From: Candidatus Dormiibacterota bacterium
GTDB taxonomy: Bacteria > Chloroflexota > Dormibacteria > Dormibacterales > Dormibacteraceae
Direction of reading: 5' to 3'
NCBI GenBank assembly: GCA_003151665.1
Contig: PLYD01000104.1
Coordinates: 1-10,053, forward strand
DNA: 10,053 nt
The notes under the pieces are model-generated. The model was not told the DNA's origin and ran no database searches. It was given only the letters and a program-made list of their open reading frames with translations. The translations under genes were made by a program, and so were the position numbers. Shown one piece after another: positions 403 through 9,788 of this stretch (position 1 is its first letter; each line of letters starts with the position of its first letter).

Positions 403-1743
403 TCAACGGAAGCTCGCGGCCACAATCACGGCGGCTGCAATCAGCGTCAGAGGGGCCACCACGGCGCCAATCTTGAGGAAGTCCCACGCCGAAACCTGCA
501 CCCCGCGGCGGCGGACGATAACGAGCCAGAGCATTGTCGAGAGCGCTCCCACCGGAGTCAGGTTTGGACCCAGGTCAGCCCCGGCCAGAGCGCCGAAGAG
601 AAATGGAGTGTGGAGGCCGGCCGGCACACCGCCCGCATCAGCGCCCGAGAGGAAGACAAGCACGGCCGGCAGGTTGTTGATCAGGTTGGAGGCTACGGCT
701 GACCCGATCAACCCGGCCATCACCGCGCTCCCGGCGTCGCTCGCATGGCTGACTGCATCTGCCACGAGAGCCGGCGTGATGCCTGCGTCCTGGACGCCGC
801 GCACCAGGACGAAGAGCGCAGCTATGTAGACGAATAGAGCAGGACTGATGTGGGTGCTCAGATGCTCACGCGACAATCGGCGGCGCGCCGTCGCCACCAA
901 TACCAGTCCGCCTCCCCCGGCGACGGCAACGATGCCGAGCGGCCAGAGCAAAGCGGACCCGACGACGTATGCGGCAGCAAGCAACGCAAGTCCGACAAGG
1001 GTCGCGACGAAGAAGGTTCGATCGCCGACCGCCGACCTGACTGCCGACCTCCAATCGAATTCGAACCGGCCGGACGCCGATCGCCAGAAGAACGCCATCA
1101 GGACCGCCATGGTGATGGCGATCGAGGCGAGCGATGCCAGCAGCAGGTGCCCTTCGTAAACAGCAAGTGGTGCGCGAAGGCGATCTCCGGTGAGAACGTT
1201 GATCGGGTTGGATATCGGCAGCGTCATCGATGCCGCGTTGGCCATGAAGCTGACGGCGAAGAGGTACGGCATGACGCGAAGCCGAAGGCGAGTCGCGATC
1301 GTGTAAACGACCGGCGTCAGGATGATCGCAGTCGCGTCGTTGGAGAGGAATGTTGTGATAACCGCGCCAAGGACGAAGACGTTGAACAGCAGCCGACGGC
1401 CGCTGCCCGCCGCCGCTGCCGCCGCCAGGCCCGCCGCCCAATCGAAGAACCCAGCCATGTCAGCGATCGCGGCCGTCAGCATGAGGCCGAAGAAGAACAG
1501 GAACAGATTCCACTCGGAGGCGACGGCGGTCAGTGCACCGAGAGGACTCACCACGCCGGTCGCCAGCATCAGGACGGCTCCGGCAGCGGCCGACCAGGCC
1601 TCGCTGATCTGTCGCGGACGAACGACGATGACGACGAGGGTGACGATGAAGATGAGGGCAGCGAGCGCGGTATGCACTGCCTCAGGCGGCTCGCGAAATC
1701 GTCCAGCCGGCGTGGCGGGGTTGGCCGGGGTCCCCCCGGCCAT
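403..1743 (-). CDS. arsB: ArsB/NhaD-superfamily ion permease (arsenite efflux pump-like)
   Basis: This is a 446-aa polytopic membrane protein with about ten to twelve hydrophobic segments, close to the length of known ArsB proteins (about 430 aa). Ion-transporter superfamily motifs are clear: SNDATAIILTPV at residues 134-145, SNPIN at 178-182, SNLINNLPA at 352-360, and GADLGPNLTPVGALSTMLW at 388-406 with a basic RRRG loop just after. The last block is characteristic of ArsB-type arsenite/antimonite extruders, but CitM or NhaD-like substrates cannot be excluded. No arsR, arsC or acr3 is visible nearby, so arsenic specificity is inferred from family only. ATG 1743 has no ribosome site; a -10-like TAAGAC at 1755-1750 sits 6 nt upstream, which suggests a leaderless start. 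The first dozen codons lie inside the repeated intergenic element, so GTG 1677, just before the first membrane helix, is a real alternative start. A Usp-like gene follows 26 nt downstream. Confidence 0.8.
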   Translation of the reverse strand: MAGGTPANPATPAGRFREPPEAVHTALAALIFIVTLVVIVVRPRQISEAWSAAAGAVLMLATGVVSPLGALTAVASEWNLFLFFFGLMLTAAIADMAGFFDWAAGLAAAAAAGSGRRLLFNVFVLGAVITTFLSNDATAIILTPVVYTIATRLRLRVMPYLFAVSFMANAASMTLPISNPINVLTGDRLRAPLAVYEGHLLLASLASIAITMAVLMAFFWRSASGRFEFDWRSAVRSAVGDRTFFVATLVGLALLAAAYVVGSALLWPLGIVAVAGGGGLVLVATARRRLSREHLSTHISPALFVYIAALFVLVRGVQDAGITPALVADAVSHASDAGSAVMAGLIGSAVASNLINNLPAVLVFLSGADAGGVPAGLHTPFLFGALAGADLGPNLTPVGALSTMLWLVIVRRRGVQVSAWDFLKIGAVVAPLTLIAAAVIVAASFR

Positions 1744-1837
1744 GACTTTGTCTTAGCCGCTCCGAATCGTGGCTTGGAGGACTAATTCGTAATTGATCCA
1801 ATCCCGGGAAGGAGAGCAGAGCCTGCGGCGAAGCCGC
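1706..1837 (-). repeat. Intergenic structured element, left copy (points into arsB)
   Basis: This copy is inverted relative to the one at 8642-8769. In the arsB sense it holds, in order: a hairpin GCGGC-ttc-GCCGC (1837-1825); a 20-base block identical to the other copy (1824-1805); the palindromic core AATTACGAATTAGT (1794-1781); a less conserved spacer; GACAAA-G-TCATGGCC (1752-1738); and a perfect 8-bp hairpin GGCCGGGG-GGA-CCCCGGCC (1741-1723). It ends about GGC at 1706. The 3' hairpin begins on the G of the arsB ATG, so about 38 bases are also read as arsB codons. The hairpins and the fixed position between stop and start suggest a cis-acting leader RNA; a mobile non-coding repeat is the main alternative. 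No known riboswitch class was recognised. Confidence 0.8.
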
Positions 1838-1844
1838 ACGCTCG

Positions 1845-1874
1845 ATGAGAGGGAACCGACTGGTTCCATCTCAT
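1845..1874 (-). terminator. Long hairpin after the propeller gene, possible terminator
   Basis: The arms ATGAGA-g-GGAACC and GGTTCC-a-TCTCAT form 12 base pairs with one internal G.A mismatch and a 4-base loop. The hairpin begins 7 nt after the propeller gene's TAG. No T-run follows on the minus strand, so termination would be non-canonical; an mRNA 3'-end stabiliser is equally possible. It is followed at once by the 5' hairpin of the repeated element and has no counterpart at the right copy. Confidence 0.5.
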
Positions 1875-1881
1875 AATCGCG

Positions 1882-3057
1882 CTAGCGATAGACTCCGTTG
1901 TGGCCCAAGCTGTGCAGGCCTACGTTCGGGAAGTAGGTCAGGCCGTGGTCTTGCAACCCGACCGGGATCTTAGCGAGCAGCTTCCCGGTGATGGTGCTCA
2001 TCACGTAGACCGTGCCGTTGTAACGGCCTGAGGCCCACAGCTGCGTGCCGGCAGGGTTGAGCTGGAGCATGTCGGGGCTGCCGCCACCAGGGATCCACCA
2101 CTTGGCGACCACCTTGCGAGTGGCGAAAGAGATGACCGAGAACGACCCTTCCAGCCGGTTCGACACGTACAGGTACTGGGTGTCACGCGAAATCTGGAAC
2201 CCGTGCGCACCCTTCCCGGTGGGTATGAACTGGATCTCCTTCATCGCGATGGGGTCGATCACCGACACTCCCATGCGGCCCTGGTTGCTCACGTAGAAGA
2301 CAGTGCCGTCGGGCGAAAGCTTGACGTCGATCGGCAATCCACCTACGTGCACAGCACCGACGAGCTTCATGTGAATGACGTCGACCTTGGCGACCATCCC
2401 GGTGTACTCGGTCGAGATCATGAGATAGCTGCCATCCGCGCTGAAGTCGAGGTGGTCCGCCCCGGCCCATGGGATGGCGACCGACCCGATCTGCCTCCAT
2501 CCGTGGTGCGGATCAAGAAACACGATCTTCTGCAGCCGTTCGACGACATCAATCGCCTTGGTGCCGTCGGGAGTGAAGTAGAGGTTGTAGGGATATGGCA
2601 TCGAGATCGTTCCGCTGGGCTTGCCGGTGTGGATGTTGATCACCGTCAGGCTGCTGGATCCTTCGTTGTCGACGTACAACGCGCTCATGTCCCAGGCAGG
2701 GGCGATGTGGTGGGGAATCGAACCGACCGCGAAGTGGTCGATCACCTTGAAGGTCAAGGGATCGATCACATCAACCGTACCGGCTCCGCTGTTGGGGACG
2801 TAAACGCGGGGAGGGATCTTGCACAGAGGACATGGGACGGTGCCCGACATGATGTTGGCGTACACGTTCACAGGTGTCGCAGGCAGGGTGCCCGGCTGGA
2901 CATCGGGGGCCGGGAGGACGCTTACCGGTCCCGTCGGTGCCGCTTCTTCCGCCGATGTCGCCGGGCCCACGTATGGAGTCGTCCAGACCACGGCGAAGAC
3001 CACTCCGGCGGGGCTGAGTATCACGAGCGTGAAGAGCGCCGCGACCACAATTCGCAT
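1882..3057 (-). CDS. Exported YVTN/YncE-type seven-bladed beta-propeller protein
   Basis: The 391-aa product begins with a basic residue and a hydrophobic stretch (residues 3-25), a signal peptide or anchor, then a Pro/Ala/Thr-rich linker to about residue 75. Seven blade-like repeats follow, each with the pattern x-x-(I/L/V/F)-x-x-(S/T)-(P/x)-(D/N), for example PHHIAPAWD (116), PYNLYFTPD (156), ADHLDFSAD (200), PIDVKLSPD (242), AHGFQISRD (284), PDMLQLNPA (328) and DHGLTYFPN (370), alternating with YV-N and VIDP-type strands. A CPLC pair (76-79) precedes blade one; it is not a CXXCH haem site. Such propellers are usually periplasmic or extracellular binding scaffolds, so no enzymatic role is assigned. 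ATG 3057 is chosen because the signal sequence begins there; a frame open to ATG 3144 would overlap the upstream gene by 56 nt. The start is 31 nt after that gene's stop, with no clear Shine-Dalgarno sequence, so translational coupling is possible. Confidence 0.75.
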   Translation of the reverse strand: MRIVVAALFTLVILSPAGVVFAVVWTTPYVGPATSAEEAAPTGPVSVLPAPDVQPGTLPATPVNVYANIMSGTVPCPLCKIPPRVYVPNSGAGTVDVIDPLTFKVIDHFAVGSIPHHIAPAWDMSALYVDNEGSSSLTVINIHTGKPSGTISMPYPYNLYFTPDGTKAIDVVERLQKIVFLDPHHGWRQIGSVAIPWAGADHLDFSADGSYLMISTEYTGMVAKVDVIHMKLVGAVHVGGLPIDVKLSPDGTVFYVSNQGRMGVSVIDPIAMKEIQFIPTGKGAHGFQISRDTQYLYVSNRLEGSFSVISFATRKVVAKWWIPGGGSPDMLQLNPAGTQLWASGRYNGTVYVMSTITGKLLAKIPVGLQDHGLTYFPNVGLHSLGHNGVYR

Positions 3058-6550: not shown

Positions 6551-7078
6551 ATGTCCGATTTGCCGCCGCCACCGCCTCCGGGTGGAGGGTTTACGCCACC
6601 GCCTCCGGGTGGGGGGTTTACGCCACCGCCTCCGGGTGGGGGGTTCACGCCACCGCCGCCGCCGCCGCTGCCGCCGGGTGGAGGCTTCACACCGCCGCCG
6701 CCCCCTCCGGGCGGAGGCTTCACGCCGTCGCCGCCGCCCCCTGGAGGCTACGTGCCGCCGGCGCCGGTTGGCTACACGGGAGCCGCTGTCGCGGGCCCTC
6801 GGACCGACGGTCTCGCGATCGGCGCCCTCATCGCCGGCATCCTGTCATTGGTCTGTTTCTGGCCGCTGTGCCTTGGCATCATCCTTGGTCCTGCCGCCGC
6901 GATCATGGGATTCATATCCCGCCAGCGGATCGCCGCGAGCGGCGGCACCGTCACTGGGGGCGGTCTGGCCCTCGGCGGCTTGATCGTCGGGATCATTGGC
7001 TTCATCGCCAGCGCAGCGTGGGCGATTTTCTCGATCTTCCTTGCCTCGCACTCCGGCGGCAATACGATCACTCCTTGA
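6551..7078 (+). CDS. Pro/Gly-rich DUF4190 domain membrane protein
   Basis: The 175-aa product has two parts. Residues 1-75 are low complexity: runs of four to seven prolines separated by GGGFT at 11, 20, 29, 43 and 54 and a degenerate GGYVP at 66. Residues 85-165 match DUF4190: DGLAIGALIAGILSL, a first membrane segment to about 120, an FISRQRIAASGG loop, then GGGLALGGLIVGIIGFIASAAWAIFSIF as the second segment. The Pro-rich part would be a flexible cytoplasmic tail or protein-binding arm, and the poly-proline stretches probably need EF-P to translate. The start is secure: AAGGAGG at 6538-6544 lies 6 nt before ATG 6551, the best ribosome site in the window. Transcription probably ends at the hairpins just downstream. 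The molecular function of the family is unknown. Confidence 0.82.
   Translation: MSDLPPPPPPGGGFTPPPPGGGFTPPPPGGGFTPPPPPPLPPGGGFTPPPPPPGGGFTPSPPPPGGYVPPAPVGYTGAAVAGPRTDGLAIGALIAGILSLVCFWPLCLGIILGPAAAIMGFISRQRIAASGGTVTGGGLALGGLIVGIIGFIASAAWAIFSIFLASHSGGNTITP
6569..6649 (+). repeat. Three 27-bp in-frame tandem repeats
   Basis: The unit, encoding PPPPGGGFT, occurs at 6569-6595, 6596-6622 and 6623-6649. The second differs from the first at one base (A to G) and the third differs from the second at one base (T to C). Degenerate units continue to about 6750. Near-identity at synonymous positions implies recent duplication or gene conversion and probable copy-number variation between strains. Confidence 0.9.
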
Positions 7079-7179: not shown

Positions 7180-8634
7180 GTGCGCATGCTTAGGGCCAGG
7201 CCAAGGGCCAGGCGATCCCGCTACAACGTCACCTACCGCCTGACTCGGTCGGTCCCGGCGATGATCGTTGCTGCCCTGCTGATTGTCGTGCTCGTGGGGG
7301 CGACCCTCGTCTATAAGCGGCTTGACGATTTCATCACCGCCACCACTGGTTACCACCTCAATCCAATCGGTGAAGTTGTACAGGCGCTCGAACCGGCGCC
7401 GGGCACGATTGCCTACAAGCTCAAGCATGGGCAGCGCGTCAACATCCTTCTGCTGGGCAGGGGTGGCTATGAGAACGACGCCCCGTTCCTCACCGACTCG
7501 ATCATGGCGGTGACGATCGATCCAAACAGCGACCGCGTGGTGCTCGCATCGATCCCGCGAGACCTGGTGGTGCACATGAACCTTCAAAATCCGCCGACCC
7601 GGACCTGGACCAACAAGATCAATGCGGCCTACGAGGTCCCATACACGAACGTCGTCTGCTGTGTCGCCAAGCCGTACACCGGCCACGATGGCGGCGGTCA
7701 CGCCGCCGAACACGAGGTCAGCACGGTCACCGGCCTTACCTTCGACCGGTACATCGCAGTCGACTTCATCGCATTTCGCGACATGGTGAATGCGCTCGGT
7801 GGAGTGGACGTCTGCCTCACGACCAATCTCGACGACACCTCATACCCGAACTACTCCGGCGGATACCACCCGATTCACTTCAAGGCCGGCTGCCAACACC
7901 TCAACGGGGAGCAGGCGCTCGAGATCGCGAGGTCCCGGCATGCGATCCAGGCTTCGCAGTCATCCGACTTTGGCCGTGCGCGCCGCCAGCAGGACATCAT
8001 GGAAGCGATCAAGCAGAAGACGACCTCGGTCAACGGTTTCTCCAAAGCGCCCCAGCTTTTGAACGCGCTTCAAAAGAGCATCACGACCGACATGACGCTG
8101 TCTGACATGAAGGCCATCTATGACTGGGGAAAGAACCTACCGAACAGCTCGATCATCAGGGTGGCGCTGACGGCGCCTCAGCCGGGCACTGCGGGCAACC
8201 TCCTGGACTTCGCGGACTGTGGCATGGGCCCGTACGTTTCGCAGCTTTGTCCGCTGGACCAGAGCTACTCGATGATCCGCCGCTACATCAAGTACCTGTT
8301 GATCGATCCAACGGTGCTGGCGGAGAAGGCCCCGATCCAGTTCGCGAACGGGTCTAACAATTTCGTGGACCTGGCGAGCCGCGTGACAGGGATGTTCGAT
8401 CCGACCGGCCTCATGCTCACGGATCCGATTCCTCACGCGCCGTCGTCAAAGACGATCATCCTGGACTACTCGGGCGGGCAGTTTCCGCTGACCGCGAAGT
8501 GGTTGGCGACCTACTTCGGTGCCAACATCGTTGAGGCCACACCCACCAAACCTGCGCCGGCCCCCCACCAGCAAACCTTTGGTCTGGTGGTCATCCTGGG
8601 CCACGACTTCGCCGCCCGCTTCTTAGGGCAGTGA
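7180..8634 (+). CDS. LytR-CpsA-Psr (LCP) family cell-wall glycopolymer ligase
   Basis: This 484-aa protein has a basic cytoplasmic N-terminus, one membrane anchor (about residues 27-45), an extracytoplasmic LCP domain and a C-terminal LytR_C-like tail. LCP landmarks are LTDSIMAVTID (104-114), SIPRDL (124-129), NKINAAY (145-151), GVDV (208-211), LNGEQALEIARSRHA (241-255) and DFGRARRQQ (263-271). The Arg and Asp residues in these motifs are those the family uses to bind the polyprenyl-pyrophosphate donor. LCP enzymes transfer glycopolymers from the lipid carrier to peptidoglycan or other acceptors. The tail, about 445-484, ends in VVILGHDF, as in LytR_C domains. Several extracytoplasmic cysteines (160, 161, 212, 238 and others) could form disulfides. 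GTG 7180 is the listed start; ATG 7186 is an alternative. It appears monocistronic, behind its own -10 and after the terminator. Confidence 0.92.
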   Translation: MRMLRARPRARRSRYNVTYRLTRSVPAMIVAALLIVVLVGATLVYKRLDDFITATTGYHLNPIGEVVQALEPAPGTIAYKLKHGQRVNILLLGRGGYENDAPFLTDSIMAVTIDPNSDRVVLASIPRDLVVHMNLQNPPTRTWTNKINAAYEVPYTNVVCCVAKPYTGHDGGGHAAEHEVSTVTGLTFDRYIAVDFIAFRDMVNALGGVDVCLTTNLDDTSYPNYSGGYHPIHFKAGCQHLNGEQALEIARSRHAIQASQSSDFGRARRQQDIMEAIKQKTTSVNGFSKAPQLLNALQKSITTDMTLSDMKAIYDWGKNLPNSSIIRVALTAPQPGTAGNLLDFADCGMGPYVSQLCPLDQSYSMIRRYIKYLLIDPTVLAEKAPIQFANGSNNFVDLASRVTGMFDPTGLMLTDPIPHAPSSKTIILDYSGGQFPLTAKWLATYFGANIVEATPTKPAPAPHQQTFGLVVILGHDFAARFLGQ

Positions 8635-8641
8635 CGACGGC

Positions 8642-8769
8642 CGGCCTTCGGCCCAGGCTCTGCTCTCCTTCCCGCGATTAATTACGAATTAGTTTCTCCT
8701 TGCCAGGCAGGGAGGAAGTAAAGACAAAATCATGGCCAGGGGGACCCGGGCCAACCCTGCCGCGCTGGC
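8642..8769 (+). repeat. Intergenic structured element, right copy (points into meaB)
   Basis: This is the inverted partner of 1706-1837. In order it has: a GGCC-ttc-GGCC hairpin (8643-8653); a 20-base block identical to the left copy (8655-8674); the palindromic core AATTACGAATTAGT (8680-8693), again identical; a spacer with GGGAGGAAG; GACAAA-A-TCATGGCC (8723-8737); and a hairpin GGCCAGGG-GGA-CCCGGGCC (8734-8752) with one A.G mismatch. It ends near GGC at 8769. The 5' stem differs from the left copy by two compensatory pair exchanges. It starts 7 nt after the LCP stop and ends about 50 nt before the preferred meaB start, so it would form the 5' leader if meaB is transcribed from within or upstream of it. 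Confidence 0.8.
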
Positions 8770-8785: not shown

Positions 8786-8806
8786 GTTGTGCCAAGTGGC
8801 GAACCT

Positions 8807-8814
8807 GGAAGGAG
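8807..8814 (+). promoter_or_regulatory. Ribosome binding site that fixes the meaB start
   Basis: GGAAGGAG lies 8 nt before TTG 8823. The earlier in-frame starts TTG 8787 and GTG 8796 would place this site inside the coding region and have no ribosome site of their own. The ATG at 8818 is in a different frame. Confidence 0.7.
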
Positions 8815-8822
8815 ACGATGGG

Positions 8823-9788
8823 TTGGCGGCGCGTTTTCGCGCCGGCGACATCCGCGCCCTGGCTCGTGCGATCAGCCTCGTCGAACGTCGCGACCCGTCG
8901 GTCCGCGCTCTGGAGACGCCGCCCAAGGGTCGGGAGGGCTCGGCTGCCGTCGTCGGGTTCACCGGCGCGCCCGGGACGGGGAAATCGACGCTTGTCGACG
9001 CGCTCGTGACCCTGTTGCGGAAACAGGGCAAGTCAGTTTCCGTGATCGCCACCGACCCCAACTCCCCCTTCACCGGCGGAGCGATCCTTGGCGACAGGAT
9101 CAGGATGCAGCGCCACGCGCTTGACCCGAAGGTCTTCATCCGCAGCATGGGCGCCCGAGGTCATCTTGGTGGGCTCTCGCTGGCTGCGCGCGAGGCGATC
9201 AGGTTGCTCGGCGCCTTCGGCTTCGACCAGGTGATCCTGGAGACGGTCGGTGTCGGCCAATCCGAGCTTGAGGTGGCGGCCGTCGCGGATACCACAGTCG
9301 TGGTCATGACCCCAAACCTCGGAGACGGCGTGCAGATGATCAAGGCCGGCATCCTGGAGATCGCCGACATCTTCGTTGTCAATAAGGCTGACCTCGACGG
9401 CTACCAGCGGGTCGCTATGGAGCTCCGCGCCATGCTCAGCCTCAATGCGCCTGGCGCCACTGGCGCCGCCACCTCGAGGCCCTGGAAGCCGCCGATCATC
9501 ACCACCGTGGCCGCTCGTCAGGAGGGGATCGACGAGCTCTGGGCGGCCATCGAATCCCATCGGCGTTATCTCGAAGCGAGCGGTCGCGCACAGGAGCTGG
9601 CCGCGAAAAGGCTCAAGGACGAGACGGCGGAGGTCGTGGCGGACCTGGCTCGGCAGCAGGCCAGGCTGGCGCTCGGCGAGGATGGCGCGCTGACCGAGCA
9701 GCTCCTGAAAGACGGCTCCCCGTACCGAGCTGCCGAGGAGATCCTGAACCGCATCGGCAGCGACGGCCGGAAGCGGGGGCGAGGCTGA
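8823..9788 (+). CDS. meaB: MeaB/ArgK-type GTPase, methylmalonyl-CoA mutase chaperone
   Basis: The 322-aa product, counted from TTG 8823, is a G3E-family P-loop GTPase of MeaB length. It shows an N-terminal helix (RAGDIRALARAISLVE), the Walker A/G1 GAPGTGKST (48-56), the ATDPNSPFTGGAILGDRIRM switch-like block (77-96), ETVGVGQSE (140-148, the base following the G3 region), and G4 NKAD (187-190). A C-terminal helical extension provides dimer contacts in known homologues. MeaB loads and protects adenosylcobalamin in methylmalonyl-CoA mutase, using GTP hydrolysis to gate cofactor transfer. The mutase gene follows 29 nt later, which makes this role firm. TTG 8823 is chosen for its strong Shine-Dalgarno sequence; a longer 333-aa form from TTG 8787 is possible. 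The gene lies behind the repeated structured element, so any regulation by it would reach the mutase operon. Confidence 0.93.
   Translation: MAARFRAGDIRALARAISLVERRDPSVRALETPPKGREGSAAVVGFTGAPGTGKSTLVDALVTLLRKQGKSVSVIATDPNSPFTGGAILGDRIRMQRHALDPKVFIRSMGARGHLGGLSLAAREAIRLLGAFGFDQVILETVGVGQSELEVAAVADTTVVVMTPNLGDGVQMIKAGILEIADIFVVNKADLDGYQRVAMELRAMLSLNAPGATGAATSRPWKPPIITTVAARQEGIDELWAAIESHRRYLEASGRAQELAAKRLKDETAEVVADLARQQARLALGEDGALTEQLLKDGSPYRAAEEILNRIGSDGRKRGRG

Follow-up and report, generated by a model that had tools for sequence, protein, structure and literature searches.

The window analysed here, a 10,053-nt stretch of a Dormibacterota genome contig, carries two related intergenic stretches on opposite strands, one located between a YncE-like beta-propeller gene and an arsB/CitMHS transporter gene, and the other between a LytR gene and meaB (Table 1). 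Local alignment of these two copies revealed 100 identical columns out of 129, with a score of 67 against a best score of 17 in 2,000 shuffles of non-overlapping dinucleotides. The inverted, near full-length match proposed by an initial sequence-only reading is thus real, and the window's two longest inverted repeats (I1, 49 nt, 88%; I2, 34 nt, 91%) both fall within this pair, as does a shorter one (I19, 18 nt, 94%). The two long identical blocks of that reading also exist, with lengths of 21 and 13 nt instead of 20 and 14. Its boundaries for the arsB-side copy (1706–1837) enclose a genuine match but fall short of the whole unit, which reaches 1875 because the 31-nt hairpin at 1845–1875 belongs to it. 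As initially described, each copy starts just after the stop codon of a gene, at 6 nt for the YncE-like gene (1882) and 7 nt for LytR (8634).

Table 1. Repeat copies, their hairpins and the neighbouring genes in the window.
Feature	Position	Strand	Remark
Repeat copy 1, full, ~171 nt	1705..1875	-	between YncE-like gene and arsB; R1 94.7 bits at 1806-1876
Hairpin H1 of copy 1, ATGAGATGGAACC / GGTTCCCTCTCAT	1845..1875	-	starts 6 nt past upstream stop codon
Hairpin H2 of copy 1, GAGC..GCGGC TTCG CCGC..GCTC	1819..1843	-	
Hairpin H4 of copy 1, TGGCCGGGG GGA CCCCGGCCA	1722..1742	-	followed by tail ending at 1705
Repeat copy 2, 5'-truncated, without H1	8642..8769	+	between LytR and meaB
H4 region of copy 2	8734..8752	+	one broken pair, A opposite G (by eye)
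YncE-like beta-propeller gene, upstream of copy 1	1882..3057	-	mechanical ORF extends to 3144
arsB/CitMHS transporter, downstream of copy 1	403..1743	-	mechanical ORF; true start probably near 1682
LytR_cpsA_psr gene, upstream of copy 2	7180..8634	+	
meaB, downstream of copy 2	8787..9788	+	

The ATG at 1743, which serves as the mechanical start of arsB, falls within the repeat, and comparison with another locus of the family (L006) points to the GTG near 1682 as the likelier start. Neither a sigma-70-type promoter nor a T-tract terminator was found in positions 1600–2000 of the window. Hairpin H1, absent from the meaB-side copy, is present at the same locus in Candidatus Dormiibacterota palsa_842 (L001); judging from this counterpart, the ageing meaB copy probably lost its 5' hairpin by deletion between two CTTCG..CAG repeats. 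Elsewhere in the window, at positions 6551–7078, a DUF4190 domain is preceded by an N-terminal part rich in proline and glycine, in which a 27-nt spaced repeat (D1) occurs.

The complete unit measures ~170 nt and comprises H1 (31 nt), H2, a conserved CTGCTCTC(C/T)TTCC stretch, a variable middle, H4, which is rich in GC, and finally a tail that stops near CGCTRGC, the 3' boundary being fuzzy. It appears to encode no protein, no reading frame being visible by eye in the alignment, and it is devoid of terminal inverted repeats, since the ends TATGAGAG... and ...CGCTRGC, as read from alignments, are not inverted copies of each other. At ten loci from several genomes, the 3' arm of H1 contained ~38 extra nt (GCGCGC..GCATCG), always inserted at the same point, a variant that makes the repeat modular. 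Head-to-tail arrays of two or three units were observed at ten loci, in one of which (L064) the duplicated unit also holds the apparent first codons of the downstream gene. In addition, a short hairpin, often GGCGGGTCTTCGACCCGCC, occurs at eight loci between the stop codon and the repeat, ending ~2 nt before ATGAG; it may represent a native terminator or an optional 5' module. The copies at two further loci in different genomes (L039 and L058) are both preceded by one shared GC hairpin that is non-coding (GCCCCCCGGTGGAGGGC), with no Rfam match there.

Applying RNAalifold to a 20-sequence alignment produced a structure of 29 pairs in five helices, in which 98.4% of the cells were paired and 14 of the 29 pairs displayed changes on both sides, against a mean of 4.6 in shuffled alignments. 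None of 500 shuffles reached any of the structure measures, and sliding the structure along the alignment left 0–3 double-change pairs, a control biased in favour of the structure, which this very alignment had served to derive; more weight falls on the double changes. Folded individually, the arsB-side copy was more stable than its shuffles on both strands (z -4.27 and -4.41). The truncated meaB-side copy folded alone no better than shuffles (z -0.80), which counts against structure being kept in that copy, the L001 piece without H1 and H2 folded at chance (z 0.19), and a 45-nt H4 piece of the window folded weakly (z -1.28). When the stems were read along the upstream gene's strand, A-C mismatches (36 in H1 over 123 copies and 10 in H4 over 139 copies, 46 in total) exceeded G-U pairs (13 and 4 in the same copies, 17 in total), which hints that the opposite strand is the one selected to fold, these counts coming from related copies and being uncorrected for kinship.

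Rfam 15 produced nothing at the gathering threshold in the window and only two tRNAs in 20 loci of the family, with matches at relaxed thresholds remaining far below their gathering scores; the initial reading likewise recognised no riboswitch family in these blocks. A pattern built from two conserved blocks matched twice among genome contigs, at the LytR-meaB locus of palsa_842 and in a Desulfohalobiaceae contig where the matching sequence is an A+T-rich simple repeat, rejected as a chance match. Exact patterns of the repeat were absent from viral contigs, and plasmid and phage collections held no match to it. A DNA search of the palsa_842 genome, in which 40 of 90 candidates were scored, gave at least 68 matching rows. 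The first 71 nt of the repeat (5' end) served for a covariance model (R1), which was built from 27 sequences and detected the arsB-side copy of the window, missed the meaB-side copy, and returned 110 rows at E ≤ 1 in palsa_842; manual counting assigned ~55 of them to sense copies, and most of the others are palindromes of the repeat matched in antisense. Truncated copies are undercounted because R1 covers the 5' part only.

Across the order to which palsa_842 belongs, R1 matched 31 of 42 genomes at E ≤ 1e-6, with 2–56 matches each. A DNA search across 101 genomes, palsa_842 included, matched 31. Among 301 genomes drawn from the phylum, 19 were matched at E ≤ 0.001, 11 of these with a best E below 1e-17. 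G005, a close relative as judged by MeaB identity (81%), had no match at E ≤ 1e-6 and weak matches only (best 5e-5). As far as searched, the family is confined to one order of Dormibacterota. This survey of relatives with a covariance model, a kind of check suggested in the sequence-only reading, yielded many copies.

Genes around the copies were called with our own codon-usage caller, which recovered those expected in the window; the upstream gene was set by hand at four loci where the caller had missed a good ORF (L004, L042, L021 and L141), the manual check covering one class of loci only. The element list held 142 entries, 57 of them from palsa_842 and the window, with only the best-scoring copies retained from other genomes. 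Antisense palindrome matches, duplicates under two locus identifiers, a 39.9-bit match (L007 589), a cut match at the start of L019, matches at a contig end (L037) and weak matches such as L086 4081 were omitted. Merging of tandem units left 127 loci, including 54 from palsa_842 and the window.

At 103 of 125 loci, the gene upstream is oriented towards the element, against 49% expected from background gene pairs. Among the 123 loci with both neighbours called, 60 gaps were co-directional, 53 convergent and 10 divergent, compared with 318, 48 and 55 among 421 background pairs, and the element stood in sense orientation in 49 of the co-directional gaps and antisense in 11. The upstream stop codon lies -10 to +8 nt from the 5' end of the element at 76 of the 103 loci (23 at -10 to -1, 53 at 0 to 8), and at 17 loci it falls exactly at -6, where the stop codon is supplied by the element itself. 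The remaining stops were located further inside the element (4), at 9–30 nt (11) or beyond 30 nt (12); in five of the 11 intermediate loci, the stop codon and the element are separated by a perfect stem of at least 5 pairs, and in several of the remaining ones by an imperfect stem. One copy (L035) lies 4 nt after a tRNA gene. In the 53 convergent gaps, a stop codon was found within 8 nt of the 5' side in 38 cases and of the 3' side in 18 (Wilcoxon p 0.0004), and a median of 23 nt separated the two stops besides the element, against 82 nt in background convergent gaps.

Downstream genes showed no such coupling, 59 being co-oriented with the element and 64 opposed at the 123 loci. The rule put forward initially, by which copies co-oriented with genes would denote a regulator of the gene that follows, does not fit these data, as the co-orientation is with the upstream gene. 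Scanning of 20 neighbour proteins (ten downstream, ten upstream) identified unrelated metabolic, transport, regulatory and unknown proteins; the ten downstream ones share nothing, as already noticed for arsB and meaB. The adjacency to stop codons could partly reflect selection, because co-directional gaps are short here (median 10 nt). What makes the family unusual is this attachment to stop codons in a locked orientation, and we have not seen the same lock described elsewhere.

Comparison of orthologous gaps provided insights into the history of the copies. LytR-meaB is a conserved pair, with a MeaB match in 37 of 42 genomes and loci examined in 30 of them (palsa_842 and 29 others). In these 29 others, the LytR-like stop is separated from the matched part of MeaB by -1 to 101 nt (read by eye at L149, where the upstream gene call was broken), and R1 detected no element in the gap at E ≤ 0.01. 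G002 displays a hairpin where palsa_842 has hairpin and element, plus a tail-like stretch (by eye), so that partial loss is possible in this genome. Along a colinear region of palsa_842 (C28), three of four sites were empty in G002, the fourth lying beyond the end of the G002 contig; R1 matched none of the corresponding stretches of G002, G005 and G019, and one copy each in G003 and G010. By position, both of these copies occupy the second site, a pattern expected from an independent event or from loss elsewhere.

Four further loci were referenced to G012. In G021 and G030, site L104 is joined immediately behind the stop codon; G016 has this site empty, as does G032, by eye and despite a poor alignment. 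The element is missing at L113 from G021 and G042, and G016 has other sequence there; L112 is empty in G032 and G030, poorly aligned. At L105, G021 carries the element, whereas the site is empty in G030, G016 and G032. R1 found no match in 12 of the 13 comparison stretches, the sole match being that of G021 at L105.

Copies clustered by genome: 78 of 116 had their best match within their own genome, against a permutation mean of 22.6 and maximum of 37, and once tandem units were excluded this held for 57 of 90 (mean 19.5, maximum 31). Of the 21 orthologous gaps occupied in more than one genome, the copies were in the same orientation in 37 locus pairs and in opposite orientation in 8, the latter distributed over four gaps; a fifth gap with opposite copies (guaA-purD, names by our own reading) emerged from letter-by-letter reading of three gaps. 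Orthologous copies were mutually closer than to copies of their own genome in the two window–palsa_842 pairs, four of five G012–G021 pairs and a few others (L039–L058, L041–L119), and this was not the case for most distant orthologous pairs. Same-orientation occupancy of gaps in several genomes could correspond to old, maintained copies. The search for target duplications detected direct repeats of at least 6 nt at 19% of 120 sites, against 11% under the null, with the longest in tandem copies; by eye, a stop-codon triplet stands on both sides of the element at L104 and L113, and flanking inverted repeats were at null level. With ~55 copies in palsa_842, carriage by 31 of 42 genomes, empty orthologous sites and opposite orientations within one gap, the non-autonomous intergenic repeat envisaged in the sequence-only reading is supported.

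Its other proposal, a shared cis-regulatory leader acting on the downstream gene in a riboswitch-like manner, would agree with the conserved structure and with the location of the window copies ahead of arsB and meaB, yet it is largely refuted by the balanced orientation of downstream genes, their unrelated functions, the element-free meaB gap of 29 other genomes and the lack of Rfam matches in the window and 20 loci, leaving it highly improbable. A functional 3'-end module, in which the repeat would be kept to end, process or stabilise the upstream transcript (or those of both genes in convergent gaps), accounts for the enrichment in convergent gaps, for the short distance left between their stops and for the strong folding of the full window copy on both strands. 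However, the region 1600–2000 lacks a T-tract terminator, and copies occur within apparently co-transcribed pairs (fabH-fabD and UDP-glucose dehydrogenase-epimerase, named from our reading of Pfam matches, and LytR-meaB) where termination would be harmful. Relatives without the element at the same places and the clustering of copies by genome, unexpected for a conserved device, also argue against such a module, which we hold to be unlikely.

Two further explanations invoke known mobilising enzymes, and none of the four families considered (Y1, IS91-type, IS110 and reverse transcriptase) tracks the repeat across the 42 genomes, although single absences mean little in draft genomes whose completeness is not stated. 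By its hairpins, its many copies, its arrays in tandem and its intergenic position, the repeat recalls REP-type palindromes moved by a Y1 tyrosine transposase (RAYT); its unit of ~170 nt with several hairpins does not, and Y1_Tnp (PF01797, E ≤ 1e-5) was detected in one of the 42 genomes, the element-free G013, and in none of the 31 carriers, an absence that is not absolute in draft genomes, so that this origin appears barely plausible. G013 holds eight Y1 transposase matches (L173–L180) in a genome of the order without the repeat. The repeat might alternatively be what is left of an autonomous element already known (a group II intron or another retroelement, IS110 or an IS91-type element) and be moved in trans by it. 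Group IIC introns insert behind genes in the sense direction and beside hairpins, a placement that the repeat resembles, and IS110 and IS91-type elements are, like it, without obvious terminal inverted repeats. Against this, RVT_1 (E ≤ 1e-5) occurred in 8 of 42 genomes, was absent from palsa_842 and reached only 4 of 31 carriers (absent from 27), and no group II intron match was obtained at gathering level in the window and 20 loci. IS110 was found in 12 of 42 genomes including palsa_842, nine with the element and three without, and not in carriers such as G002, G010 and G021, and Y2_Tnp in 2 of 42, a search that matched none of 14 control genomes. Such a descent is accordingly very unlikely. 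No longer, autonomous relative of the repeat was seen, an observation made without a systematic search.

Because copies are dispersed, gaps are empty in relatives, copies cluster by genome and the 5' end lies mostly at stop codons, we consider it likely that the two window stretches belong to a mobile repeat of ~170 nt, structured and non-autonomous, found in one order of Dormibacterota. A trans-acting enzyme would recognise the terminal hairpins on a single strand, of DNA or RNA, and insert copies at the 3' ends of genes; the inserted copy would then join the 3' untranslated region, where it could lend its neighbours a stop codon or a hairpin. Counting against a mobile repeat are the failure to find a mobilising enzyme, the lack of clear target duplication and the fuzzy 3' boundary. 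More speculatively, and with considerable doubt, the family may be a new small mobile element with insertion coupled to gene ends, whose machinery, perhaps acting on a single-stranded hairpin intermediate, would set the 5' end at the stop codon, or at an immediately following hairpin or RNA end, in sense to whichever gene points there and without the four tested enzyme families.

In our judgement, the repeat represents a new family of a known kind of small mobile hairpin repeat, the nearest kinds being compared here by description. The closest appears to be YPAL/RU-2 of Yersinia, a 168-bp intergenic repeat with internal inverted repeats, not A+T-rich, whose targets span or adjoin dyad symmetry, which is linked to upstream transcripts and whose recent mobility was inferred from empty and filled sites (PMC2229807). 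The two are alike in size, internal inverted repeats and the lack of terminal ones; YPAL/RU-2 differs by its phylum, by target duplications of 3–26 bp (PMC2229807), none being clear in the Dormibacterota repeat, and by the absence of a stop-codon rule from the portion of its description consulted. BOX, RUP and SPRITE of Streptococcus pneumoniae are enriched in convergent gaps, BOX being modular, with the stop codon of a gene 3' end lying in BOX in 36 cases, and SPRITEs being located near gene 3' ends (PMC3049150). BOX and SPRITE thus resemble the Dormibacterota repeat as small, structured elements enriched in convergent gaps and, for BOX, supplying stop codons, whereas BOX has terminal inverted repeats similar to an IS (PMC3049150), none being evident here, and the consulted part of their description mentions no orientation lock to the upstream gene.

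The bcr1 repeat of the Bacillus cereus group is similarly lineage-specific, mobile-like and present in tens of copies per genome, with a TTTAT motif (PMC6542083) that was not seen by eye at the ends of the Dormibacterota repeat. REPs are likewise multicopy hairpin repeats, but in units of 20–40 bp, far from ~170 nt; the GTAG type accompanies Y1 transposases (RAYT), which were not found in the carriers, and the CGTC repeats are apparently without a dedicated transposase (PMC3733652), as are the multicopy hairpins described here. ERIC, described in enterobacteria, is likewise a small intergenic repeat, and its orientation influences the effect that it has on the upstream mRNA (PMC2229807, PMC3049150).

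We found no report of such mobile hairpin repeats in this phylum among open-licence papers, and our results thus add a family of them to a phylum without one in that literature. Dozens of copies, empty sites and both orientations constitute a natural data set on how bacterial elements without an obvious transposase find the 3' ends of genes. Should the stop-codon rule reflect a genuine target preference rather than selection alone, it would represent a new way for an element to spare its host harm.
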